IMG/VR virus record: IMGVR_UViG_3300037247_000810
Coordinates: 1 to 64,000 of that record
Origin: a virus
Strand: one strand, 5' to 3'
Length of the DNA stretch: 64,000 bases
A program made the position numbers and the translations under genes. The notes under the pieces were generated by a model. That model did no database searches. It was not told where the DNA came from and worked only from the letters and a program-made list of their open reading frames with translations. Below, piece by piece: positions 2,406 to 46,847 of the stretch. Numbering within the stretch: the first letter of the stretch is position 1; the number at the start of each line of letters is the position of its first letter.

Positions 2406-4730
2406 TCACTCCGCGAGGATATAGCCCCTCGCCACGTTCTGAACAACCCCCAGTGACTCCATCGCGTCGAGGATAATCTTCAACTGCGGGGTCGGCACGC
2501 GACGGAAGTGCTGTTGGAGATCACGCTTCTTGATGGGCTGCTGCTGGGCGATGTAGTCCTTGATTTGTTCCTGCCATCGCGCCTGCTTTTCTTCGATGAG
2601 TTGGCCCATCAGCCCCCGCGTCACGCTCTCGGCATAGCGGGCCGCCTTCCAACCCAGATCGATGTCTTCTTCAACGATGGTGTTGCGATGGCCCTCAGTC
2701 ATGAGAGCATAAATCAGGGCGAATTTCATAGCGTACTCCGGCACCCGCTCGGTAGCCGCAATCTCCTGCTCGTCGCTGCCCTCACGTCGCCCTTCCATCC
2801 ACGCGAGGTAGTTTTCGTCCCAGACCTCCTCCGCATCCGAGGCCAGGGCAAACTCGACGTTATACGTCTTGCCGTCCTCTCCCGCCACGGCCTCGAAGGC
2901 GTCACGGATGTGCTCAACGACCTTCGCCCACATTTTCGGCGCAGGCGGCCGGGTGCGCGGCAGTGGCTCGACTTGATAACCATCCACGAACAAGATACGG
3001 TTGCCGAAGCCGCTCGTCCACTCGATCTCGTCGAAGTGCTGGCTGAGCTTGCTAAGCGTGCTGTCGGAGAGGATGCTGGTACAGGAGTTGACGAGTACCA
3101 GCGGCCGCTTGCGTGTGCGGAGCCGGATGTCTTTCGGACAGTCGAAGGCGGTGAGCAGGTGCGGGATGAACCCCGCGCCGCCGCCTCCGGCGGTGGCCTT
3201 TGACAGCAGGCGGCAGAACTCGTCCTGGTGGATCAATAGACGGCGCTCCGGCTTGAGCATCAAGTCCTCTTCGTCAAGTTCGTGGCCGTCCGCCGTCTTC
3301 TCCTTCCAACCCATCATCACCTTGACGGCATCGTGCTCGTCCTGGCCCTCGGCGTCGGCGAACACGGCTGCCTCTAGCAGCCCCTCAGCGCTGCCCATTG
3401 CCTGTTCGATGGTCAATCGTGTACCAGGGAGCCGATCAATGTCCTCCTTGTCGTACAGCGCCTCCACAAGTTCGATGGCCCGTGAGTTGGCGGTGGACTT
3501 GAAGCTCGCGGTCGGGCCAATGAGTACGGTGTACTGGTTGGGGTATAGGCGGCGGCTCTGGTAGATGTAAGCGCGGCGGCCGAACACGGCCCCGATCACG
3601 TTCATCAGGGCAAAGAAATGGTACTCGCCGCAGGCGGCGGTGTTCAAGCGCAGCGACTCGCGGTAGTCCTCCCACGGCTGCACCCAACACTCCTTCGGCA
3701 GACCGGCCGGGTCGTGGTTCCGCCGCGTGCGCTCCGCCTGCTTCTTGTCGCGGGCGGGCACATCCTCGGCGGGCCAGACCCGCTTCTCGGTCTGATCTAG
3801 CGCCTGCTCGAAGGCATCCGAGTCACCCTCGACGCGCCGCCACAAGTCGGTCAGGTCGCCGCCTTTGCCCAGGTCTTCGGGTAGTTGAATCGTTGTGACC
3901 GCGAGGCCCGCCTGCGCCAACTCGATAGCCAGCTTTTCGGTCGCGTCCGCGCCGGTCGGGTCAACGTCGTAGATGACATAGACCTCTTTGATGCCTGCCT
4001 CGGTTAGCTTATTGATGGCGCGCTGGTTGGGCATATTGCCCTCGCCCGCCAAGAAGCTAATGGCCGGGAAGCCCGCACGGGTCATGATCCAAACGTCCGG
4101 CGCGCCCGCGCAGACGTACACCAACTTCTCGCGGGGTAGCTTGGGGATAACGCGCTGCAAGTTGTAGACGAGGCTCTGGCTCTTGACGCCGGACTCCGAG
4201 AGCTTTGGCTCCCAATGGTACTTAGGCCGCGAGGTAATGTTCTTGTCGTACCATGCGCCCCGCTTGATCTGTTCATGTCGCTGGCGCTTCTTGAGGCCGT
4301 CGATCTCGTAGTCAATCTCGATGTCGGGGTCGACTTCGGGGTCGTCCACGGGGATGCTGTAGCCGCCCGCGCCCGGCCCGATGCCGAACGTTTCAATGAG
4401 CCAGTCACGGGGCAGCAGCCGTCGCTCGGCCAGATCGCCCACCACATCCTTCGGCCGCTTTCCACGACGGCGGATGCTGGTGCGGTCAAGAATGAAGTCC
4501 TCCAGGCTGTTCAGGTTCGTGACCGCGCTCATGGGCGAGCAGGACGCCATACACTTGACGCCACCCTGTTCGGGGTTCACGCGCAGGGACGGCGTATCGT
4601 CATCATGCCCTGGGCAGTGGATACTGATCCAGCCATCCTCGCTCGGATCGAGGTCACAGCCATCGAGCACGGCGGGACGCAGCGCCAGGATGCTCTCCCA
4701 GACCAGCGGCCAGGGCGGGAGCTTTGCCAA
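2406..4730 (-). CDS. primase-helicase (zinc finger, TOPRIM-like, DUF3987-type ATPase)
   Basis: 774 residues in three parts. Residues 30-65 carry a CHC2-like zinc finger (CPGHDDDTPSLRV then CMASC). Residues 205-300 look like a TOPRIM fold (LVYVCAGAPDVW, later VYVIYDVDPTGADATEK with the DxD motif). Residues 350-700 form a DUF3987-type helicase with Walker A GPTASFKST and an acidic strand LLIHQDEF. The protein should prime and unwind DNA at the phage fork. The start is TTG, directly behind the upstream stop (TAATTG), with AAGGAGG 8 bases upstream. The TOPRIM glutamate, usually in an EG pair, is alanine here (CAGAP), so primase activity is uncertain. Confidence 0.85.
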   Translation of the reverse strand: MAKLPPWPLVWESILALRPAVLDGCDLDPSEDGWISIHCPGHDDDTPSLRVNPEQGGVKCMASCSPMSAVTNLNSLEDFILDRTSIRRRGKRPKDVVGDLAERRLLPRDWLIETFGIGPGAGGYSIPVDDPEVDPDIEIDYEIDGLKKRQRHEQIKRGAWYDKNITSRPKYHWEPKLSESGVKSQSLVYNLQRVIPKLPREKLVYVCAGAPDVWIMTRAGFPAISFLAGEGNMPNQRAINKLTEAGIKEVYVIYDVDPTGADATEKLAIELAQAGLAVTTIQLPEDLGKGGDLTDLWRRVEGDSDAFEQALDQTEKRVWPAEDVPARDKKQAERTRRNHDPAGLPKECWVQPWEDYRESLRLNTAACGEYHFFALMNVIGAVFGRRAYIYQSRRLYPNQYTVLIGPTASFKSTANSRAIELVEALYDKEDIDRLPGTRLTIEQAMGSAEGLLEAAVFADAEGQDEHDAVKVMMGWKEKTADGHELDEEDLMLKPERRLLIHQDEFCRLLSKATAGGGGAGFIPHLLTAFDCPKDIRLRTRKRPLVLVNSCTSILSDSTLSKLSQHFDEIEWTSGFGNRILFVDGYQVEPLPRTRPPAPKMWAKVVEHIRDAFEAVAGEDGKTYNVEFALASDAEEVWDENYLAWMEGRREGSDEQEIAATERVPEYAMKFALIYALMTEGHRNTIVEEDIDLGWKAARYAESVTRGLMGQLIEEKQARWQEQIKDYIAQQQPIKKRDLQQHFRRVPTPQLKIILDAMESLGVVQNVARGYILAE

Positions 4731-29603: not shown

Positions 29604-31154
29604 CTAGTCCTCAACCTCGTCGCCGTCCTCATCGACCTCTACGGTCTGTGTGACGACAACGGGCTCCGGCGCGCGTTCTTGCGTACCAGCTACTGCGACT
29701 GGCGGCGTACCAGCGACAGCGGAGCCGCGGCCAAGAACCAGCGGCGCGTTCTGGAACAGGCCGTCCAAGTAACGCTTCTGATCCTCGGTCTGAGGCACCA
29801 TCGAACCGCCAATCATGTCCAGCGGCATCGCGCCGATTGGCGTCATCACAATAATTGTGTCGCCGCCCTCAACCGGGCCTTTACCGTCCTCGGCACGAAC
29901 CTCATTGACCGTATCCCACGGGATGCCTCCCAAGGCCCAGCGGTTGTAGTCTGCCTGATCGCGGGTGTTCTTGGCCGACCGCAACCGATACTTGAATGCG
30001 AGGTTCAGGACGTTCGCCGCGTGCAGCTTGCGGAAGACGTCAGCGTGGTCTCGCGGGCTGATGTGCGTCAGGGCGATAGCCAGGCGCATTGTCGTCACGT
30101 CGATCTCGCCCGCGTGCCATGCTTGCTTGGCCTTGGTGCGGGCGAAGTCCGCAATCACCTTAGCGTTGATCTCTTCCTCGATCAGCCGGAGGAGCGGCTT
30201 GAGACCGCGATCCTCGCTCAACTCCTGCTGGGTCGTGGCGTTAGCACGGTTCACGTCGAAAGTGATGCCCAAGTCCTGCGGGGCGATACCGAACACGGCC
30301 GCGATCTTGCGCAAGAGGTAGACCTGCCACTGCATGTACTGCATATCGCGGGCCGTTTGGCCGAGCTTGATGAAATCAGGGTTCTTGACGCCACCGATGA
30401 TGCCCATCTGCTTTTTACCGGCGACCTCGGCGTCCCAGTACACGCGGAATGAGTCCACGACGTTCGCACCCACGTTCTCGCCCAAATTCAGGATGCCGTT
30501 CGGCGAGGTCTGTCGCACCATGCGCGTATTGAAGTCGCGGGCGGCCAGGTCGGCGTCAATGGTGGCCTTCAGAGCCTCCAATGGCGAGAAGCCATCCACG
30601 CGGTGTGAGGTTGGGTTTGCCATCATCAGCACGATTTGCGTATCAAGCAGATTGGAGACGAATACGTTGTTGGGCCACCATGAATAGCGCGGATCGTTAG
30701 GATCACCGCTCCAGCGCGGGTTTGTGCGGATGCTCGCGCCATCCACCAGATACAACGCCACTGGGGAGCCGCCAACCGTGATCTCCTTCTCGATCACGCC
30801 CCGGTCGAGCACCAGGATGTCCTCAATTACTGGCTCGATCAGGGCGCGGAAGGACTTCTGCTTGTTATTCGGGTGCAGGAGCAGCAACTCGATGGTCGCC
30901 TGCAACTTCGGGTCGAATTTGGCCTTGTCGTCAATAGGCACGATGCCCCAGGACGACTGGGAAACTTGGACGCGCCGGTGGTTGATGGCCGCACGTACCC
31001 ACTCGGAAGTGTCCGCCCAATGTCGTAACTGGACAGCCTGTACCTTGACAACAGGTCGCGCCGAGGCAAGGCCACCGAATGGGTGAATGCGGTCGGGAGC
31101 CGTGACCTGATCCTTGACCACAATCTCCGCTGGTGCTGGGCCAACATTGAACAT
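29604..31154 (-). CDS. portal protein
   Basis: 516 residues. Typical portal stretches: WVRAAINHRRVQVSQSSWGIVP near residue 50, ILVLDRGVIEKEI, ALYLVDGASIRTNPRW, a long helix in the second half (YMQWQVYLLRKIAAVFGIAPQDLGIT, then NRANATTQQELSEDRGLKPLLRLIEEEIN). It forms the dodecameric DNA gate at one capsid vertex. The last 60 residues are Pro/Val/Glu-rich and likely flexible. Immediately followed by the protease/scaffold and capsid genes. Confidence 0.9.
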   Translation of the reverse strand: MFNVGPAPAEIVVKDQVTAPDRIHPFGGLASARPVVKVQAVQLRHWADTSEWVRAAINHRRVQVSQSSWGIVPIDDKAKFDPKLQATIELLLLHPNNKQKSFRALIEPVIEDILVLDRGVIEKEITVGGSPVALYLVDGASIRTNPRWSGDPNDPRYSWWPNNVFVSNLLDTQIVLMMANPTSHRVDGFSPLEALKATIDADLAARDFNTRMVRQTSPNGILNLGENVGANVVDSFRVYWDAEVAGKKQMGIIGGVKNPDFIKLGQTARDMQYMQWQVYLLRKIAAVFGIAPQDLGITFDVNRANATTQQELSEDRGLKPLLRLIEEEINAKVIADFARTKAKQAWHAGEIDVTTMRLAIALTHISPRDHADVFRKLHAANVLNLAFKYRLRSAKNTRDQADYNRWALGGIPWDTVNEVRAEDGKGPVEGGDTIIVMTPIGAMPLDMIGGSMVPQTEDQKRYLDGLFQNAPLVLGRGSAVAGTPPVAVAGTQERAPEPVVVTQTVEVDEDGDEVED

Positions 31155-38407: not shown

Positions 38408-39874
38408 CTACCCGAAGCTCGGCTCCGCGAGACTCCGTGCGTCATCGCATTGCCTGACTGCATAGCGAGTTGCGTCCATCAAGTGATTATGCCTATCCAT
38501 CGGCACCTCGCCGATGGCCTCGCCGAACTCGTCGAATGGGTAAATGTATTGGCCCTGCTCGAACGCCCAGTGGATGAGATTATTGAAGGGGAGCAGGTGG
38601 GCAGACTTCAGCAATGAGCCGACTTCGATCAGACCGGCGAGTTTGGCGTCGGCCGCGTAGACCTGGGCCTCGGTAAACCGTGCCTGCACATCATACAAGG
38701 TCTCCTTCTTGGACGGGTCGACGAAGATGCGGCCGATGTTCTCACGCTCCTCCGTGGCCACGAACGCGCCCTCGTCCTCATCCCATTTCTCGACCATCGA
38801 CATCGCGTAGATCGCGTCCAACATCTCATGCGGTGAGCGCCAGCGTTGATCGGGCGAGGTGATGTCCGGTGTGCAGGCCAGATAGAATTCTCGGTAGACG
38901 TACCAGACCTCCGGCTCGAACGGGTCGTAGGTAAGCCAGACGGCCGCGAACTTGTCCTTGCCGCCGTGCGTCGGGTCGACGCCGATGAAGCGTGGCCAGT
39001 GCGCCGGAATCTCGACTGGATCGATGTACGTCACGTCTGGGTAGACCTGACCCTGCGGCTTCTCGAACTCCGCATTGTACATCATGTTGAAGTACCAACG
39101 CGGGAGCAGCCGTGCCAGGCGCGCCTCCTCCTCCAACGAGAAATATGGGTTGACGATGGAAGGGAAACGAACGACCAGGGTATCCTCATCCTCGCCCTTC
39201 TCGGCCTTCTTGATGATCTCCGTCAGCCACGACGCGCCAGCCATATAGGGCGTGGTAGTGACCAGGAGGCGGCCTTCGCCGTGGAGTCGCTGTTGGGTGA
39301 TGAGGTAGATCGCAGGGTCGCGCACCTGTCCGCCCTCATCGATCCAGGCAGCCTCCAGCCGCGCTCCTTGCAGGCGGTGGCGGCGTTCGGCGGAGCCCGC
39401 ATAGATTTGCACATTGTAGCCAACGGGCCGGAGGTCAATCCGCAAGTCCTGCTTGTTGAGGATTGTCTCCTCAGAGCAGCCGAACTTCGCGCAGAGGAAC
39501 CGCACCATGCGGGCAATCCCGACCGTGGCCTGGCGCATCATCTGGAGCGTCGGCCCCACGATGCCGAACAGGTATTCGGTGCCGGGTGGGCCTTCGTCAA
39601 CCTTCTTCTGAATCTCCCGCCAGAGCCAGTGGGGGCCAACGTGCGACTTGCCGCCCTGAGACCCCGCCAAGAGGATTGTGTTTAGGGTCTCCCTATCATA
39701 CCAGACAGGCTTCTGACCCCAGTGCGGGGTAAAAGTTGCGGCCATAGGGCCAACCTTCTTGACATCGCCCAGTACACGGCGTGGGCGACGCACCTCGACG
39801 ACGTTGCCCGTGACCTTGTACGCGGTCGTGGGCAGTCGAAGGTTGCCGTTGGCGGTGGAGATGTAAGTGGTCAT
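38408..39874 (-). CDS. terminase large subunit
   Basis: 488 residues. ATPase part: TILLAGSQGGKSHVGPHWLWREI as Walker A (an uncommon AGSQGGKS form), ARLEAAWIDEGGQVRDPAIYLI as Walker B, LVTTTPYMAGASWL as coupling motif. Nuclease part: RFIGVDPTHGGKDKFAAVWLTYDP, IFVDPSKKETLYDVQARF and MDRHNHLMDATRYAV supply the RNase H-like acidic residues. It packs and cuts DNA. An ATG at 39874 or a TTG at 39883 may be the start; AAGGAT stands 10 bases before the TTG. Confidence 0.9.
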   Translation of the reverse strand: MTTYISTANGNLRLPTTAYKVTGNVVEVRRPRRVLGDVKKVGPMAATFTPHWGQKPVWYDRETLNTILLAGSQGGKSHVGPHWLWREIQKKVDEGPPGTEYLFGIVGPTLQMMRQATVGIARMVRFLCAKFGCSEETILNKQDLRIDLRPVGYNVQIYAGSAERRHRLQGARLEAAWIDEGGQVRDPAIYLITQQRLHGEGRLLVTTTPYMAGASWLTEIIKKAEKGEDEDTLVVRFPSIVNPYFSLEEEARLARLLPRWYFNMMYNAEFEKPQGQVYPDVTYIDPVEIPAHWPRFIGVDPTHGGKDKFAAVWLTYDPFEPEVWYVYREFYLACTPDITSPDQRWRSPHEMLDAIYAMSMVEKWDEDEGAFVATEERENIGRIFVDPSKKETLYDVQARFTEAQVYAADAKLAGLIEVGSLLKSAHLLPFNNLIHWAFEQGQYIYPFDEFGEAIGEVPMDRHNHLMDATRYAVRQCDDARSLAEPSFG

Positions 39875-39931
39875 ACCGATCAAGTTTCTTATCCTTGATC
39901 AATTGTAACCGCTGGCCTCCTAGCGGTCTAG

Positions 39932-42700: not shown

Positions 42701-42745
42701 GGTGCCGGTGGAGGGAGTCGAACCCTCTTCTTACCCTTGACCGGC
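42701..42745 (-). ncRNA. tRNA-like minihelix 1 (no anticodon arm)
   Basis: The sequence pairs GCCGGT with ACCGGC as an acceptor stem, carries a perfect T arm (GAGGG TTCGACT CCCTC), and has only a 12-base linker in place of D and anticodon arms. Discriminator A is followed by CC then G. Its 5' end touches the CCA of the tRNA-Thr(CGT) gene, exactly like real tRNAs of the array. It is the last member on the minus strand. Confidence 0.7.
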
Positions 42746-42820
42746 TGGAGCCATCGGAGGGAATCGAACCCTCTCCTGCGGTTTACGAAACCGCTGCACA
42801 GCCACTTGTGCTTCGATGGC
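42746..42820 (-). tRNA. tRNA-Thr(CGT)
   Basis: Complete cloverleaf; anticodon loop TTCGTAA, T arm GAGGG/CCCTC, acceptor GCCATCG/CGATGGC, CCA encoded. It begins on the base next to the CCA of tRNA-Leu(TAG). Confidence 0.92.
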
Positions 42821-42906
42821 TGGTAGCCTCGGCGAGAGTCGAACTCGCACGCCGTTTCCGGCCGGGGCTTCTAAGACCCCTACGTCTACCATTCCGTCAC
42901 GAGGCT
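42821..42906 (-). tRNA. tRNA-Leu(TAG)
   Basis: Class II with long variable arm; anticodon loop CTTAGAA, T arm GCGAG/CTCGC, CCA encoded. Its first base A is also the last A of the upstream tRNA-Val CCA, so the two genes overlap by one base. Confidence 0.92.
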
Positions 42907-42981
42907 GGTACACCTGGTAGGAGTCGAACCTACAATCTCTCGGATGTGAACCGAGCGCCTTAGCCTTTGGGCCACAGGTGC
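42907..42981 (-). tRNA. tRNA-Val(CAC)
   Basis: Anticodon stem CTCGG/CCGAG with loop TTCACAT; acceptor GCACCTG/CAGGTGT. CC is encoded and the final A is shared with the next tRNA. Confidence 0.92.
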
Positions 42982-43056
42982 TGGTGCTTCGGGACGGATT
43001 TGAACCGCCGACGCCGCGCTCTTCAGGCGCGCGCTCTACCCCTGAGCTACCGAAGC
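42982..43056 (-). tRNA. tRNA-Phe(GAA)
   Basis: Anticodon stem CGCGC/GCGCG with loop CTGAAGA; acceptor GCTTCGG/CCGAAGC, CCA encoded; one base separates it from the upstream tRNA. Confidence 0.92.
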
Positions 43057-43057
43057 G

Positions 43058-43134
<77 letters not shown>

Positions 43135-43209
43135 TGGAGCGGAAGAAGGGACTCGAACCCTCGACATTCTCGTTGGCAACGAGACATTCTACCACTGAAT
43201 TACTTCCGC
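43135..43209 (-). tRNA. tRNA-Gly(GCC)
   Basis: Anticodon stem TCTCG/CGAGA with loop TTGCCAA; acceptor GCGGAAG with CTTCCGC; CCA encoded; no spacer on either side. Confidence 0.92.
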
Positions 43210-43296
43210 TGGTGTCACCGGCGAGAGTCGAACTCGCACCCCCTTGCGGGGACAAGGCTCTCAACCTTGCATGTCTACCTGTTCCATCACGGTGAC
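43210..43296 (-). tRNA. tRNA-Leu(GAG)
   Basis: Class II; anticodon stem CAAGG/CCTTG with loop TTGAGAG, long variable arm, acceptor GTCACCG/CGGTGAC, CCA encoded. Confidence 0.92.
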
Positions 43297-43372
43297 TGGT
43301 GAACTCGGTAGGAATCGAACCTACGACATCCGACGTATCAGATCGGCGCTCTAACCCCTGAGCTACGAGTCC
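43297..43372 (-). tRNA. tRNA-Ile(GAT)
   Basis: Anticodon stem CCGAT/GTCGG with loop CTGATAC; T arm GTAGG/CCTAC; CCA encoded. Confidence 0.92.
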
Positions 43373-43448
43373 TGGTGACAGCGGGTGGACTTGAACCACC
43401 GGCCTTCGCCTTATGAGGGCGCTGCTCTACCAACTGAGCTACGCTGCC
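43373..43448 (-). tRNA. tRNA-Met(CAT), elongator-like
   Basis: Loop CTCATAA; acceptor GGCAGCG/CGCTGTC is fully paired, so it is not initiator-like. It could also be a lysidine-modified tRNA for AUA; the sequence alone does not decide. Confidence 0.85.
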
Positions 43449-43526
43449 TGGTAGCCCCAGCAGGATTCGAACCTGCGACGTTCCGCTTAAGAGGCGGCTG
43501 CTCTGGCCGGACTGAGCTATGGGGCC
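43449..43526 (-). tRNA. tRNA-Lys(CTT)
   Basis: Anticodon loop CTCTTAA between GCCGC and GCGGA; T arm GCAGG/CCTGC; CCA encoded; no spacers. Confidence 0.92.
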
Positions 43527-43612
43527 TGGTGCGCAAGGAGGGAATCGAACCCTCAAACCCTAGTGGGCACACGGTTCTGAGCCGTGCGTGTTTACCGTTT
43601 CACCACTCGCGC
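43527..43612 (-). tRNA. tRNA-Leu(CAG)
   Basis: Class II; anticodon stem CACGG/CCGTG with loop CTCAGAA; long variable arm; CCA encoded. Confidence 0.92.
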
Positions 43613-43700
43613 TGGTGGGGCAGGTAGGACTCGAACCTACGGAGACCGTTAAGGCCAGCAGGGTTACAGCCTGCCGCAATTGCCGCTATGCGACTACCCC
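43613..43700 (-). tRNA. tRNA-Tyr(GTA)
   Basis: Class II, as bacterial tRNA-Tyr should be; anticodon stem GCAGG/CCTGC with loop CTGTAAC; acceptor GGGGTAG/CTGCCCC; CCA encoded; two spare bases before the tRNA-Cys gene. Confidence 0.92.
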
Positions 43701-43702
43701 TT

Positions 43703-43776
43703 TGGAGACCCCGGCCGGATTCGAACCGACGATAACCGGGTTGCAGCCGGTTGCCTTACCACTTGGCCACGGGGTC
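43703..43776 (-). tRNA. tRNA-Cys(GCA)
   Basis: Anticodon stem ACCGG/CCGGT with loop CTGCAAC; acceptor GACCCCG/CGGGGTC; CCA encoded. Confidence 0.92.
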
Positions 43777-43849
43777 TGGCACACCTGGTAGGAGTCGAAC
43801 CTACTCTCACGGGTTTGGAGTCCGGTCGGCGCATCCCGCGCTCAGGTGC
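43777..43849 (-). tRNA. tRNA-Trp(CCA), irregular
   Basis: 73 bases. Loop CTCCAAA gives anticodon CCA. The anticodon stem CCGGA/CCCGT has mismatches at both ends and the D arm is a 4-bp stem with only five loop bases (GGGAT). Acceptor GCACCTG/CAGGTGT and T arm GTAGG/CCTAC are sound, and CCA is encoded. Possibly functional but degenerate. Confidence 0.75.
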
Positions 43850-43924
43850 TGGCTGTCGGACTAGGATTCGAACCTAGAACTTCCTGATTCAGAGTCAGGC
43901 GTCATACCGTTAGACCATCCGACA
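43850..43924 (-). tRNA. tRNA-Gln(CTG)
   Basis: Anticodon stem CCTGA/TCAGG with loop CTCTGAA; acceptor TGTCGGA/TCCGACA; CCA encoded. Confidence 0.92.
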
Positions 43925-43998
43925 TGGATGCGGGAGCAGGAATCGAACCTGCATTCACGGGTTCAAAGTCCGACGTCCGACCTTTAGACGATCCCGCA
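43925..43998 (-). tRNA. tRNA-Gln(TTG)
   Basis: Loop CTTTGAA gives TTG. The anticodon stem TCGGA/CCCGT has the same kind of end mismatches as tRNA-Trp; acceptor TGCGGGA/TCCCGCA is perfect; CCA encoded. Confidence 0.85.
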
Positions 43999-44085
43999 TG
44001 GTGCGCCGGGAGGGAGTCGAACCCTCATGCCCCTGGAAGCACACGGGTTTGAGCCGTGCGTGTCTACCAATTTCACCACCGACGC
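43999..44085 (-). tRNA. tRNA-Leu(CAA)
   Basis: Class II; anticodon stem CACGG/CCGTG with loop CTCAAAC; long variable arm; CCA encoded. Confidence 0.92.
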
Positions 44086-44163
44086 TGGTGGGCCAGGTGG
44101 GAGTCGAACCCACAAGAGACACGGGGTTTAAGCCCGCCGCATATACCATTCTGCTACTGGCCT
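44086..44163 (-). tRNA. tRNA with TAA anticodon (Leu), short variable arm
   Basis: Loop CTTAAAC between GCGGG and CCCGT gives TAA, reading UUA. Unlike the other four leucine tRNAs it has only about seven bases between anticodon and T stems, so it is class I. Acceptor AGGCCAG/CTGGCCC starts with an A1-C72 mismatch. CCA encoded. Charging identity is therefore uncertain. Confidence 0.75.
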
Positions 44164-44239
44164 TGGCACCAGAGGTAGGACTCGAACCTACAACCAACCG
44201 CTTAACAGGCGGCCGCGCTACCTATTGCGCCACTCTGGT
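44164..44239 (-). tRNA. tRNA-Asn(GTT)
   Basis: Loop CTGTTAA; acceptor ACCAGAG/CTCTGGT; T arm GTAGG/CCTAC; CCA encoded. Confidence 0.92.
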
Positions 44240-44309
44240 TGGAGCCAGGGGCGGGATTCGAACCCGCGTCTACAGACTTACAAGGCCCTAGACAACCTGT
44301 TACCTGGCT
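44240..44309 (-). tRNA. tRNA-Thr(TGT), short D arm
   Basis: 70 bases. Loop CTTGTAA gives TGT; acceptor AGCCAGG/CCTGGCT and T arm GCGGG/CCCGC are perfect, but the D arm is reduced to a few bases. Its first A is shared with the CCA of tRNA-Ser(GCT). CCA encoded. Confidence 0.78.
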
Positions 44310-44398
44310 GGCGAAGCGAGCAGGATTCGAACCTGCGAGACCTTACGGCCCACCGCGTTAGCAGCGCGGCGCATTCAACCTGACTCTGCCACCGCTTC
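44310..44398 (-). tRNA. tRNA-Ser(GCT)
   Basis: Class II; anticodon stem CCGCG/CGCGG with loop CTGCTAA. The 5' end is followed on the plus strand by a 12-base direct repeat (44391-44402 and 44403-44414) that copies the acceptor start plus CCA of the neighbour. Confidence 0.92.
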
Positions 44399-44410
44399 TG
44401 GCACCGCTTC

Positions 44411-44486
44411 TGGCACCCTCGGCAGGAGTTGAACCCGCGACATCCTGGTTCGAAGCCAGGCACTCTGTCCACTGAGCTACGAGGGC
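44411..44486 (-). tRNA. tRNA-Arg(TCG)
   Basis: Anticodon stem CCTGG/CCAGG with loop CTTCGAA; T arm GCGGG/CCTGC; CCA encoded. Confidence 0.92.
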
Positions 44487-44564
44487 TGGTATCCGTGAGA
44501 GGGCTCGAACCTCCGGCCTCAGCCTTCGCAGGGCTGCGCTCTTATCCAACTGAGCTACACGGAC
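44487..44564 (-). tRNA. tRNA-Arg(GCG)
   Basis: Anticodon stem CAGCC/GGCTG with loop CTGCGAA. GCG instead of the usual ACG means CGU and CGC can be read without the TadA deaminase. CCA encoded. Confidence 0.92.
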
Positions 44565-44651
44565 TGGCGGAAGGTGAGGGATTCGAACCCCCAAGGCCCA
44601 TCACGCCCAACCGCTTTCAAGGCGGTGTACCACACCAATGGCAGACCTTCC
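44565..44651 (-). tRNA. tRNA-Ser(TGA)
   Basis: Class II; anticodon stem ACCGC/GCGGT with loop CTTGAAA; CCA encoded. Confidence 0.92.
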
Positions 44652-44739
44652 TGGAGGAGACGGTGGGATTCGAACCCACGAGACCTTGCAGCCCACTCGC
44701 TTTCGAGGCGAGCGCTTTCATCCACTCAGCCACATCTCC
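44652..44739 (-). tRNA. tRNA-Ser(CGA)
   Basis: Class II; anticodon stem CTCGC/GCGAG with loop CTCGAAA; CCA encoded. Confidence 0.92.
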
Positions 44740-44827
44740 TGGCGGACGCTGTAGGATTCGAACCTACGGTGCCTTGCGACACACACGCTTTCCAGACGTG
44801 CCCGTTAAACCACTCCGGCAAGCATCC
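44740..44827 (-). tRNA. tRNA-Ser(GGA)
   Basis: Class II; anticodon stem CACGT/GCGTG with loop CTGGAAA; acceptor GGATGCT/AGCGTCC; CCA encoded. An 89-base spacer with a structured hairpin precedes it. Confidence 0.92.
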
Positions 44828-44833
44828 GTGTGC

Positions 44834-44903
44834 GGCGGCCTGCATCACAGTGTGCCTACTAACATATAGGGTGGAGCCCAATGTTTCGGCACACGCCGCC
44901 GCC
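44834..44903 (-). ncRNA. nested hairpin RNA between tRNAs
   Basis: Three coaxial stems are visible: GGCGGC/GCCGCC outside, GTGTGCC/GGCACAC in the middle, AACAT/ATGTT inside, closing with GGG CTCCA CCC. Together about 21 base pairs in 70 bases. It lies just after minihelix 2 and before tRNA-Ser(GGA) in transcription. A processed small RNA or a spacer that protects the ends; identity unknown. Confidence 0.55.
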
Positions 44904-44916
44904 ATCCACATTCTGT

Positions 44917-44960
44917 GTCGGCTGCGGGAATCGAACCCACCTAACACCAGTTTAGCCGAC
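44917..44960 (-). ncRNA. tRNA-like minihelix 2 (no anticodon arm)
   Basis: Acceptor GTCGGCT/AGCCGAC is a perfect 7-bp stem. The T arm is GTGGG TTCGATT CCCGC. Between them is only AAACTGGTGTTAG, in which AAC/GTT can form a tiny D-like arm with a TGGT loop. A follows as discriminator, then CAC instead of CCA. The 5' end touches the CCA of tRNA-Asp. Confidence 0.72.
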
Positions 44961-45037
44961 TGGCGACCCCTACGGGATTTGAACCCGTGACCTCCGCCTT
45001 GACAGGGCGGCGAGCACAACCACTGCTCCAAGGGGCC
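44961..45037 (-). tRNA. tRNA-Asp(GTC)
   Basis: Anticodon stem CCGCC/GGCGG with loop CTGTCAA; acceptor GGCCCCT/AGGGGTC; CCA encoded. An 85-base spacer (45038-45122) without a recognisable gene precedes it. Confidence 0.92.
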
Positions 45038-45122
45038 TCGTTGCTAGCGCAGGTGCCCTTGGCCTTGGCTCCCCGACCGACCCGCTAGCTAGTCGACCGG
45101 ATCAACGCTGTACCGAAGGGCT

Positions 45123-45198
45123 TGGTGGCGGAGGCAGGATTCGAACCGACGTTCTCTTGCTTATGAGGCAAGCGAGATGACCACTTCTCCACTCCGCT
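45123..45198 (-). tRNA. tRNA with CAT anticodon (second Met-type)
   Basis: Anticodon stem CTTGC/GCAAG with loop CTCATAA. Acceptor AGCGGAG/CTCCGCC has an A1-C72 mismatch, as initiators lack a 1-72 pair, but the three G-C pairs of an initiator anticodon stem are absent. It may be an initiator-like, elongator or AUA-reading tRNA. CCA encoded. Confidence 0.82.
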
Positions 45199-45273
45199 TG
45201 GCGGCCCATCAGGGAATCGAACCCTGCTCTGATGCTTGAGGGGCATCTATCCTATCCGATAGACGAATGGGCC
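45199..45273 (-). tRNA. tRNA-Glu(CTC)
   Basis: Anticodon stem GATGC/GCATC with loop CCCTCAA; acceptor GGCCCAT with ATGGGCC; CCA encoded. Confidence 0.92.
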
Positions 45274-45349
45274 TGGTCGGGACGGCAGGATTCTAACCTG
45301 CGATTCCGTGCTCCCAAAGCACGTGTGTTGAACACTACACTACGCCCCG
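45274..45349 (-). tRNA. tRNA-Pro(TGG), unusual T loop
   Basis: Anticodon stem CGTGC/GCACG with loop TTTGGGA; C1-G72 as in bacterial tRNA-Pro. The T loop reads TTAGAAT: A replaces the near-invariant C56 that pairs with G19. CCA encoded. Confidence 0.85.
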
Positions 45350-45426
45350 TGGTCGGAGTTGCAAGACTCGAACTTGCGGCCCCCGCGTCCCGAACGCGGT
45401 GCTCTTCCTGGCTGAGCTAAACTCCG
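45350..45426 (-). tRNA. tRNA-Pro(CGG)
   Basis: Anticodon stem CCGCG/CGCGG with loop TTCGGGA; C1-G72; CCA encoded. Confidence 0.92.
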
Positions 45427-45502
45427 TGGGGTGATCGAGGAGATTTGAACTCCCGCTAAGAGGGCCACAACCTCTTGTGCTAACCACTACACTACGACCA
45501 CC
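45427..45502 (-). tRNA. tRNA-His(GTG)
   Basis: Anticodon stem AGAGG/CCTCT with loop TTGTGGC. The extra 5' G and the C before CCA give the G-1:C73 pair specific for histidine tRNA. Confidence 0.93.
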
Positions 45503-45503
45503 T

Positions 45504-45577
45504 TGGAGCGCCTAGCGGGAATCGAACCCGCGAACTCTGCTTGGAAGGCAGATATGTTGCCCCTACATCACAGGCGC
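45504..45577 (-). tRNA. tRNA-Gly(TCC)
   Basis: Anticodon stem TCTGC/GCAGA with loop CTTCCAA; acceptor GCGCCTG/TAGGCGC; CCA encoded. Confidence 0.92.
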
Positions 45578-45652
45578 TGGTACGGGCGGTGGGACTCGAA
45601 CCCACACCGAACGGTTTAAAAGACCGCTGCTCTGCCTTCGAGCTACACCCGC
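45578..45652 (-). tRNA. tRNA-Lys(TTT)
   Basis: Loop CTTTTAA between GCGGT and ACCGT; acceptor GCGGGTG with CGCCCGT; CCA encoded. Confidence 0.92.
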
Positions 45653-45728
45653 TGGTAGCGTCGACGGGATTCGAACCCGCTCCGTCCGGTTTGAAAGACC
45701 GGCGACCTATCCTGTAGTCGACGACGCT
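45653..45728 (-). tRNA. tRNA-Glu(TTC)
   Basis: Anticodon stem CCGGT/ACCGG with loop CTT TCAA; acceptor AGCGTCG/CGACGCT; CCA encoded. Confidence 0.92.
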
Positions 45729-45805
45729 TGGAGCCTTCGGCGAGATTCGAACTCGCTGCCTCGTTCTTACCAAGAACGCGCTCTACCAATTGAGCTACGA
45801 AGGCT
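45729..45805 (-). tRNA. tRNA-Thr(GGT)
   Basis: Anticodon stem GTTCT/AGAAC region with loop TTGGTAA; acceptor AGCCTTC/GAAGGCT; CCA encoded. First tRNA after the RNase P RNA gene in transcription order. Confidence 0.92.
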
Positions 45806-45812
45806 TGTTATC

Positions 45813-46142
45813 GAGCAATCGGGTCGTAAGCCGCTTTCTGTTTCTCTGCCTACATCTCTCTAGCTGTCACGCGGTCGCTGCCAAACTACCCGCCGCGCCT
45901 CCGGCCCCCTAACGCAATCCGTCTTTTCACACGACCTCCGTGTCTCCGGGTCTCGGCAGGCTCGGTGGCCCGCTACCCGTAGTCGCTGTTCGTGACATCT
46001 CGCCGGTCTCTTGCCCGACGGCCCGCCTTATTAGGGACGGGTAGGTTGTTTGGCGGCCGAGCGGACTTTCCTCAAGGGCCTCGTGGTGCAAACGCCTCGC
46101 GGCTCCCACCAGACGATCCTGCGTAGGCACGTCCGATTGCTC
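45813..46142 (-). ncRNA. rnpB: RNase P RNA (catalytic RNA of tRNA 5' processing)
   Basis: About 330 bases read on the minus strand. The ends form a perfect 10-bp P1 helix (GAGCAATCGG with CCGATTGCTC). The universally conserved 5' core GAGGAAAGTCC is at 46083-46073 and the 3' core ACAGAAAGCGGCTTA at 45841-45827; these two form P4 in bacterial RNase P RNA. Between them are GGCAAGAGACCGG (46015-46003), like the GGTAAGAGCGCACC core, and AGAGAGATGTAGGC, like the AGAnnnATG core. The gene lies inside the tRNA array and on the same strand. It cuts the 5' leaders of tRNAs. No gene for the protein subunit was seen, so a host protein may be borrowed. Confidence 0.9.
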
Positions 46143-46145
46143 TCT

Positions 46146-46196
46146 TGGCAGCCGGTCGCGGAATCGAACCGCACGGAGGTCAACCAGACCCCGGCT
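46146..46196 (-). ncRNA. tRNA-like minihelix 3 with encoded CCA
   Basis: 51 bases. Acceptor AGCCGG/CCGGCT, T arm TGCGG TTCGATT CCGCG, discriminator G and a full CCA. The linker folds as GGTC TGGTT GACC, a D-arm-like hairpin, and there is no anticodon arm. The 5' end touches the CCA of tRNA-Arg(CCT); the 3' CCA is 3 bases before the RNase P RNA. The best-formed of the four. Confidence 0.75.
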
Positions 46197-46271
46197 TGGT
46201 GCCCTGAGCGGGAATCGAACCCGCATCTGCCGCTTAGGAGGCGGCTGCGCTATCCATTACGCCATCAGGGT
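46197..46271 (-). tRNA. tRNA-Arg(CCT)
   Basis: Anticodon stem GCCGC/GCGGC with loop CTCCTAA; acceptor ACCCTGA/TCAGGGC has an A1-C72 mismatch; CCA encoded. Confidence 0.9.
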
Positions 46272-46351
46272 TCAATAGGCATCCGTGCCGATGGCCTTCC
46301 TGGCCCCAATACCACGGCCCGCCTGAGTTAAGGCACACGGGCCGGACGGTC

Positions 46352-46394
46352 GACTGCGCGGGGATTTGACCCCATAGCGCCAAGCGCCGCAGCC
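46352..46394 (-). ncRNA. tRNA-like minihelix 4 (no anticodon arm)
   Basis: Acceptor GGCTGCG/CGCAGTC (one G-T pair), a small arm GCG CTTGG CGC in the place of the D arm, and a T-arm-like stem TGGGG/CCCCG whose loop TCAAAT is one base short. No anticodon arm. The spacer 46272-46351 downstream can fold as GGCCCG/CGGGCC with an inner GCCT/AGGC. Confidence 0.6.
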
Positions 46395-46396
46395 GT

Positions 46397-46466
46397 TGGC
46401 ACCCTCGGTGGGAGTCGAACCCACGTTTGGCCGCTTAGAAGGCGGCGCATCGTCCCCGACGAGGGC
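46397..46466 (-). tRNA. tRNA-Arg(TCT), short D arm
   Basis: 70 bases. Anticodon stem GCCGC/GCGGC with loop CTTCTAA; acceptor GCCCTCG/CGAGGGT; the D arm is cut to a small hairpin. CCA encoded. Confidence 0.85.
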
Positions 46467-46542
46467 TGGTGAGCGATGAGGGAGTCGAACCCCCGGCACC
46501 CTGGATGTAAGCCAGGTGCTCTGGCCTCTGAGCTAATCGCCC
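46467..46542 (-). tRNA. tRNA-Val(TAC)
   Basis: Anticodon stem CCTGG/CCAGG with loop CTTACAT; CCA encoded; no spacers. Confidence 0.92.
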
Positions 46543-46617
46543 TGGTGGAGATGACAGGATTCGAACCTGCGACTTTCAGTCTGCCAGACTGACACTCTCC
46601 CGCTGAGTTACATCCCC
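46543..46617 (-). tRNA. tRNA-Ala(GGC)
   Basis: Anticodon stem TCAGT/ACTGA with loop CTGGCAG; acceptor GGGGATG with CATCTCC; CCA encoded. Confidence 0.92.
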
Positions 46618-46693
46618 TGGTGGAGCACGCGGGACTCGAACCCGCAACCTCCTGCGTGCAAGGCAGGCGCACTCCCAATTGTGCTAGCACCCC
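46618..46693 (-). tRNA. tRNA-Ala(TGC)
   Basis: Anticodon stem CCTGC/GCAGG with loop CTTGCAC; CCA encoded. Confidence 0.92.
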
Positions 46694-46769
46694 TGGTGGA
46701 GACGACAGGACTCGAACCTGCTACCTCGTCGTTGCGAACGACGCACTCTCCCTGCTGAGCTACGCCCCC
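46694..46769 (-). tRNA. tRNA-Ala(CGC)
   Basis: Anticodon stem CGTCG/CGACG with loop TTCGCAA; CCA encoded. First gene of the array in transcription order. Confidence 0.92.
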
Positions 46770-46818: not shown

Positions 46819-46847
46819 AATATACCGGATCGCGGAATACTTGTCAA
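46819..46847 (-). promoter_or_regulatory. promoter of the tRNA/RNase P RNA array
   Basis: TTGACA (46847-46842), 17 bases, TATATT (46824-46819) on the minus strand, an almost perfect sigma70 promoter about 45 bases before the first tRNA. The whole array up to 42.7 kb can be one transcript. Confidence 0.8.

Follow-up and report, generated by a model that had tools for sequence, protein, structure and literature searches.

An RNase P RNA gene, recognised by anatomy and covariation, within a phage tRNA array

Introduction

Among cellular ribozymes, RNase P RNA is a textbook case, and phages are assumed to borrow that of the host. In bacterial RNase P RNA, a site in the P15 loop is the binding place of the tRNA CCA end. 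Host RNase P is treated as the enzyme for phage tRNAs in a T4 study and a review (PMC11143913, PMC9697503). Genuine CPR RNase P RNAs of cellular genomes are divergent enough to score under model cut-offs (PMC8172020). In open-licence full texts, we found no report of an RNase P RNA from a phage, and 'Clades of huge phages' makes no mention of one; an earlier report elsewhere is possible. The remark of a previous sequence-only reading that such RNAs are rarely reported from phages thus appears correct.

Here, we analyzed a 64,000-nucleotide stretch of viral DNA (positions 1 to 64,000 of IMG/VR record IMGVR_UViG_3300037247_000810), termed the window, in which 46142..45813 (minus strand, 330 nt) is a divergent bacterial-type RNase P RNA gene.

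Results

The phage and its tRNA array

The window was assigned to a phage by matches to terminase large subunit, portal, tape measure, helicase, and primase proteins. The features of the region are as follows.

29604..31154, minus strand: portal protein (PF04860, 1.8e-28)
38408..39883, minus strand: terminase large subunit (phrog_2, 2.5e-31)
42746..46769, minus strand: tRNA array, 40 ARAGORN tRNAs with tRNA-Trp and tRNA-Thr(UGU) by eye, for all 20 amino acids
45729..45804, minus strand: tRNA-Thr(GGU), downstream neighbour of the RNA, 8 nt past P1 (ARAGORN)
45813..46142, minus strand: RNase P RNA gene, 330 nt, divergent, with class A-like core, from a full-length RF00010 match and covariation with the relative L062
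46146..46196, minus strand: mini tRNA-like element with acceptor, short hairpin, T arm, and CCA; the anticodon arm is absent
46197..46271, minus strand: tRNA-Arg(CCU), upstream neighbour of the RNA (ARAGORN)
46819..46847, minus strand: sigma-70 type promoter TTGACA-17-TATATT, near-consensus (11/12 match)

Relatives of the terminase and portal in the phage collection were only about 23–30% identical at the protein level. BLAST of the window RNA against the phage records gave no match, the collection held no similar DNA, and the 5' part of the RNA had no match among plasmids. A portal search for relatives led to one contig, L062, whose portal is 81% identical; the terminase search found none. 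In the tRNA array of L062, tRNA-Arg(CCU) and tRNA-Thr(GGU), which are also the neighbours of the window RNA, are separated by a gap of 983 nt, and this gap holds an RNA that can be aligned with the window RNA end to end. Host contamination was rejected for the window because the surroundings of the gene are a phage tRNA array and L062 has it at the corresponding position. An open frame at 3129-3640 of L062, between the P RNA and tRNA-Thr, has a translation that by eye resembles an HNH (homing) endonuclease.

The sequence-only reading had counted 42 tRNAs with almost no spacers, and this count held: ARAGORN found 40, and tRNA-Trp (43777-43849) and tRNA-Thr(UGU) (44240-44308) were added by eye. 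An encoded CCA end is present in 40/40 ARAGORN tRNAs, and 28 of the 39 junctions between them have zero spacer. Three spacers of ~80-90 bases, structured by eye, were seen in this otherwise nearly gapless array (46272-46349, 45038-45122, and 44828-44914, minus strand). The promoter ends 50 bp ahead of the first tRNA, and a similar one (TTGACA-17-TACATT, by eye) precedes the L062 array. That one promoter serves the whole array, as had been claimed, is likely but unproven: the 11/12 site does stand before the first tRNA, but a second, weaker promoter-like site (9/12) lies inside the array.

The mini tRNA-like element directly precedes the P RNA, adjoins tRNA-Arg(CCU), and is conserved at 2658-2706 of L062. 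Further elements lacking the anticodon arm were observed on the minus strand at 46350-46396, 44915-44960, and 42702-42745, the last of which folds less clearly. The counterpart of 46350-46396 lies in the same place in L062 (2533-2580), where a rewritten acceptor stem still pairs. It is possible that these elements are RNase P processing signals.

Model score and conserved core

A local scan with RF00010 matched the window RNA over the full model length (46140-45811, minus strand) with 15.0 bits, and a scan of the whole 103,459-base virus record gave 26 bits (E=1.1e-7) at the same place. Both values are below the gathering score of 100 bits, which is a curation cut-off and no structural feature. 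The high Infernal score that the sequence-only reading had looked for was thus not obtained. RF00010 was the retained match of its clan at this locus, lower-scoring matches of the same clan (RF00011 is class B) not being displayed. The structural elements of the RNA are listed below.

46133..46142, minus strand: P1 5' strand GAGCAATCGG, perfect 10 bp with 45813-45822; double-sided changes in L062
45813..45822, minus strand: P1 3' strand CCGATTGCTC, perfect 10 bp with 46133-46142; double-sided changes in L062
46123..46128, minus strand: P2 5' strand GCCUAC, 6 bp with 45848-45853; one double-sided change in L062
45848..45853, minus strand: P2 3' strand GUAGGC, pairs with 46123-46128
46078..46114, minus strand: P3 arm with inner GCC-GCGA-GGC hairpin, from folding and L062 alignment
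46063..46073, minus strand: CR-I core GAGGAAAGTCC, exact string
45827..45841, minus strand: CR-V core ACAGAAAGCGGCTTA, exact string
46060..46068, minus strand: P4 5' strand AAG(U)CCGCU with bulged U, pairs with 45828-45835; two double-sided changes in L062
45828..45835, minus strand: P4 3' strand AGCGGCUU, pairs with 46060-46068
46055..46059, minus strand: P5 5' strand CGGCC, pairs with 45902-45906; two double-sided changes in L062
45902..45906, minus strand: P5 3' strand GGCCG, pairs with 46055-46059
45869..45898, minus strand: P15 (GCGCGG/CCGCGU) around a GGGUA loop; compensatory change in L062, GGGUAG invariant

The window RNA forms P1, P2, P5, P15, and a P4 pseudoknot that has the bulged U, and the framework P1, P2, P3, P5, and P7 is present. 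The perfect 10-bp end helix noticed earlier is exact (46142-46133 with 45822-45813), and the P4 pseudoknot proposed along with it forms consistently, bulged U included. The CR-I and CR-V strings were both there as claimed, but the coordinates given for the former, 46073-46083, were reversed and should read 46073-46063. By analogy with bacterial RNase P RNA, GGU at 45888-45890 in the P15 loop would bind the CCA of tRNA.

P4 of the collected phage and bacterial RNAs reads GGG/CCC, GGA/UCC, GAA/UUC, or GAG/CUC, with a few G-U or mismatched versions. GCU/AGC was found in the window and in no other contig of our four IMG/VR pattern scans. Mycoplasmopsis agassizii, the sole candidate for a bacterial source of this version, was rejected, the RNA there being class B. 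When P10/P11 and CR-II/CR-III of the specificity domain were examined, ACAGCGA and GUGUGAAA were present, as strings only. P6, P16, P17, P13, P14, and P18 were not found in the window RNA, which has only P15 between P5 and P2. Genuine RNase P RNAs are known to lose P13, P14, P16, P17, and P18 (PMC8172020), and we therefore still filed the window RNA as RNase P RNA, yet not as standard class A. Unconstrained RNAfold gave no RNase P fold, as expected for a pseudoknotted RNA; thus, the case for the structure rests on comparison.

Covariation with the relative phage

RF00010 missed the homologous RNA in the L062 record; a partial match to archaeal RNase P was all that was obtained. The core of this RNA reads AGGGAAAAATCC, which departs from the near-universal core letters. 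Two motif scans for a third homologue gave the L062 contig again and nothing else.

Between the window and L062, 53 of the 71 proposed pairs were unchanged, 11 had double-sided and four had one-sided changes with pairing kept, and three failed. One of the failures is only an alignment gap in P1; with the gap cell omitted, the counts are 11/4/2. The same changes, this cell omitted, were shuffled 5,000 times over the paired positions, and the mean numbers of double-sided, one-sided, and broken pairs were 1.7, 8.9, and 15.6, respectively. The observed 11 double-sided changes were reached in 0/5,000 shuffles (maximum 7), and the two observed broken pairs compare with a minimum of 8. Double-sided changes fall in P1, P2, P4, P5, P7, P8, P12, and P15; the one in P4 beside the bulged U (G-C vs A-U) lies within an otherwise near-universal stretch. 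Both sequences were at hand when the structure was drawn, a circumstance somewhat in its favour, but double-sided changes across eight helices are hard to explain by such a bias. From the 11 double-sided changes, two of them in P4, as against the permutations, we therefore infer that selection acts on the window RNA to keep the RNase P RNA fold. Judged by anatomy and covariation, it is an RNase P RNA, and the earlier call of such an RNA on the minus strand within the tRNA array was confirmed.

Recurrence in other phages

Four pattern scans of IMG/VR for two core strings 174-297 bases apart yielded 55 contigs with RNase P core strings. RF00010 matches (E<=0.001) were obtained in 55/55, and 45 were above the cut-off. 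The RNA lies between same-strand tRNA genes within 700 bases in 23 of the scan contigs, which makes 25 loci when the window and L062 are counted. A terminase or portal match, in some cases weak, was found in 18 carrier records including that of L062 (terminase: L002, L007, L010, L014, L016, L023, L029, L034, L044, L045, L047, L053, L054, L056, and L062; portal: the records of L028, L030, L051, and L062). Carrier records with tRNAs have 1 to 69 of them, commonly 20-50. Bacterial rnpB-like genes at a contig edge were seen in the near-identical L011, L012, L018, L019, L020, L022, L025, and L026. The phage RNase P RNA gene is recurrent among tRNA-rich uncultured phages.

Two other RNA genes were observed in this set. 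L008, a 114-kb viral contig, has a tmRNA gene about 450 bases before the RNase P RNA gene (636-993 and 1449-1755), and L005, a 202-kb viral contig also with RNase P RNA, has a group I intron at 3325-3528 (RF00028, 68.4 bits).

BLAST with five other phage P RNAs as probes found no cultured carrier among 50,697 phage records; three resulting records were examined. Microcystis phage MaAM05 was rejected because its gene looks like a bacterial rnpB with fabI and glyS as neighbours. Its record MW495066.1 was deposited as a complete phage genome, and 111323-119473 (locus L057), with fabI, engB, glyS, and an RNase P RNA that passes the Rfam cut-off, looks bacterial. The Acinetobacter MD-2021a gene also looks like a bacterial rnpB, at a prophage edge, the Salmonella houtenae record proved to be a bacterial contig of 691 kb, and neither was accepted as a carrier. 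The third record examined, MT835553, is an unannotated fecal scaffold and a possible carrier.

Discussion

We consider it probable that the phage RNA and host RnpA cut the CCA-ending, back-to-back phage tRNAs, an activity that we infer together with transcription and catalysis, the association with host RnpA, and an advantage for the phage. The RNase P RNA, as the catalytic subunit, would be transcribed with the tRNA array, fold into the conserved catalytic core, and bind host RnpA, and the hybrid enzyme would cut the 5' ends of precursor tRNAs. Because most of the tRNAs carry CCA and abut without spacer, one cut at a zero-spacer junction would yield two ends at once, a 5' end and, on the preceding tRNA, the CCA 3' end, and a single enzyme could deal with the greater part of the array. 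Cleavage at the start of tRNA-Thr (45804) would in addition release the P RNA on its 3' side. At the 5' end of the P RNA no obvious RNase P site is present, and either another nuclease or the attached mini tRNA must therefore be assumed there. The placement in a dense CCA-encoding array fits a part in the formation of phage tRNA 5' ends. Counting against this reading are the RF00010 score far below the cut-off, the missed L062 homologue, and the several helices not found.

RnpA (PF00825) is encoded in none of the 23 searched records, which may be incomplete (the window phage and 22 others, L062's among them), and at the magnesium levels of a cell the window RNA would therefore still be expected to depend on the protein of the host. 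As suggested in the sequence-only reading, the phage may benefit by escaping a host enzyme that is limiting, degraded, or incompatible; the absence of RnpA weakens this suggestion. The same absence would suit a decoy that competes for the host protein, binding RnpA without useful catalysis and starving or redirecting host RNase P, so that the host tRNA supply is shut while the phage uses its own tRNAs; the departure of the core from near-universal letters also speaks for it. Such a decoy is nevertheless unlikely, since the retained P4 with bulged U, CR-V, and CCA-binding loop exceed the needs of RnpA binding alone, P4 and P15 are maintained by compensatory change, and the phage's own tRNAs require RNase P as well.

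The RNA might also be a ribozyme specialised for odd array substrates (mini tRNA-likes and zero-spacer junctions) on which host RNase P performs poorly, with the host enzyme doing the rest. Classically, the smallest substrate of RNase P is an acceptor stem with a T arm, and mini tRNA-likes are conserved beside the P RNA in both phages, but the P RNA recurs in arrays of other phages where spacers are often longer, and we regard this as quite improbable. That a host rnpB was acquired with tRNA genes and carried without selection, as rnpB at the edge of some IMG/VR contigs (near-identical L011, L012, and others) might suggest, is contradicted by double-sided pair changes far above permutation and by the conserved array position in L062, and can hardly be credited.

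Beyond processing of the window array by a hybrid enzyme, a broader proposal is that phage RNase P RNAs are a widespread undescribed group in many tRNA-rich lineages, with self-processing tRNA operons and hybrid enzymes with host RnpA, in which the window lineage has altered universal core letters and uses anticodon-less mini tRNAs as cis elements; we see this as an even bet. It seems that the carrier viruses come with some of the machinery for making tRNAs, and if phages repeatedly carry RNase P RNA in tRNA arrays, the supply of tRNAs by viruses would reach as far as the maturation enzyme. Phage P RNAs would be a natural set of fast-evolving ribozymes, changed at near-universal positions, and offer a direct test of why phages hold full tRNA sets. 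Rfam cut-offs hide such genes, one homologue having been missed entirely.

The window RNA resembles class A RNase P RNA (RF00010, rnpB/M1 RNA) in CR-I, CR-V, P1, P2, P3, the bulged U of P4, P5, the GGU of P15, the CUAGA..AUG joining strand, and the order and spacing of these elements. It differs in being phage-borne in a tRNA array, in the P4 variant GCU/AGC, in scoring 26 bits vs 100, and in the absence, as far as found, of P6/P16/P17, P13/P14, and P18. Like divergent CPR RNase P RNAs, it scores under model cut-offs with several peripheral helices missing, whereas those are single copy in cellular genomes and some of them lose the CCA-binding GGU motif that the phage RNA keeps (PMC8172020). 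The array, like the T4 tRNA clusters (dimeric precursors, PMC11143913; infection, PMC9697503), consists of closely spaced phage tRNAs needing RNase P; unlike T4, for which dependence on host RNase P is assumed, the window phage would supply the RNA subunit itself, and CCA is encoded in its tRNAs. Theta ribozymes located beside phage tRNAs are similarly proposed to free tRNA maturation from host nucleases, but they are HDV-like, self-cleaving, and proposed for 3' trailers in cis, and are not RNase P (PMC10879173).
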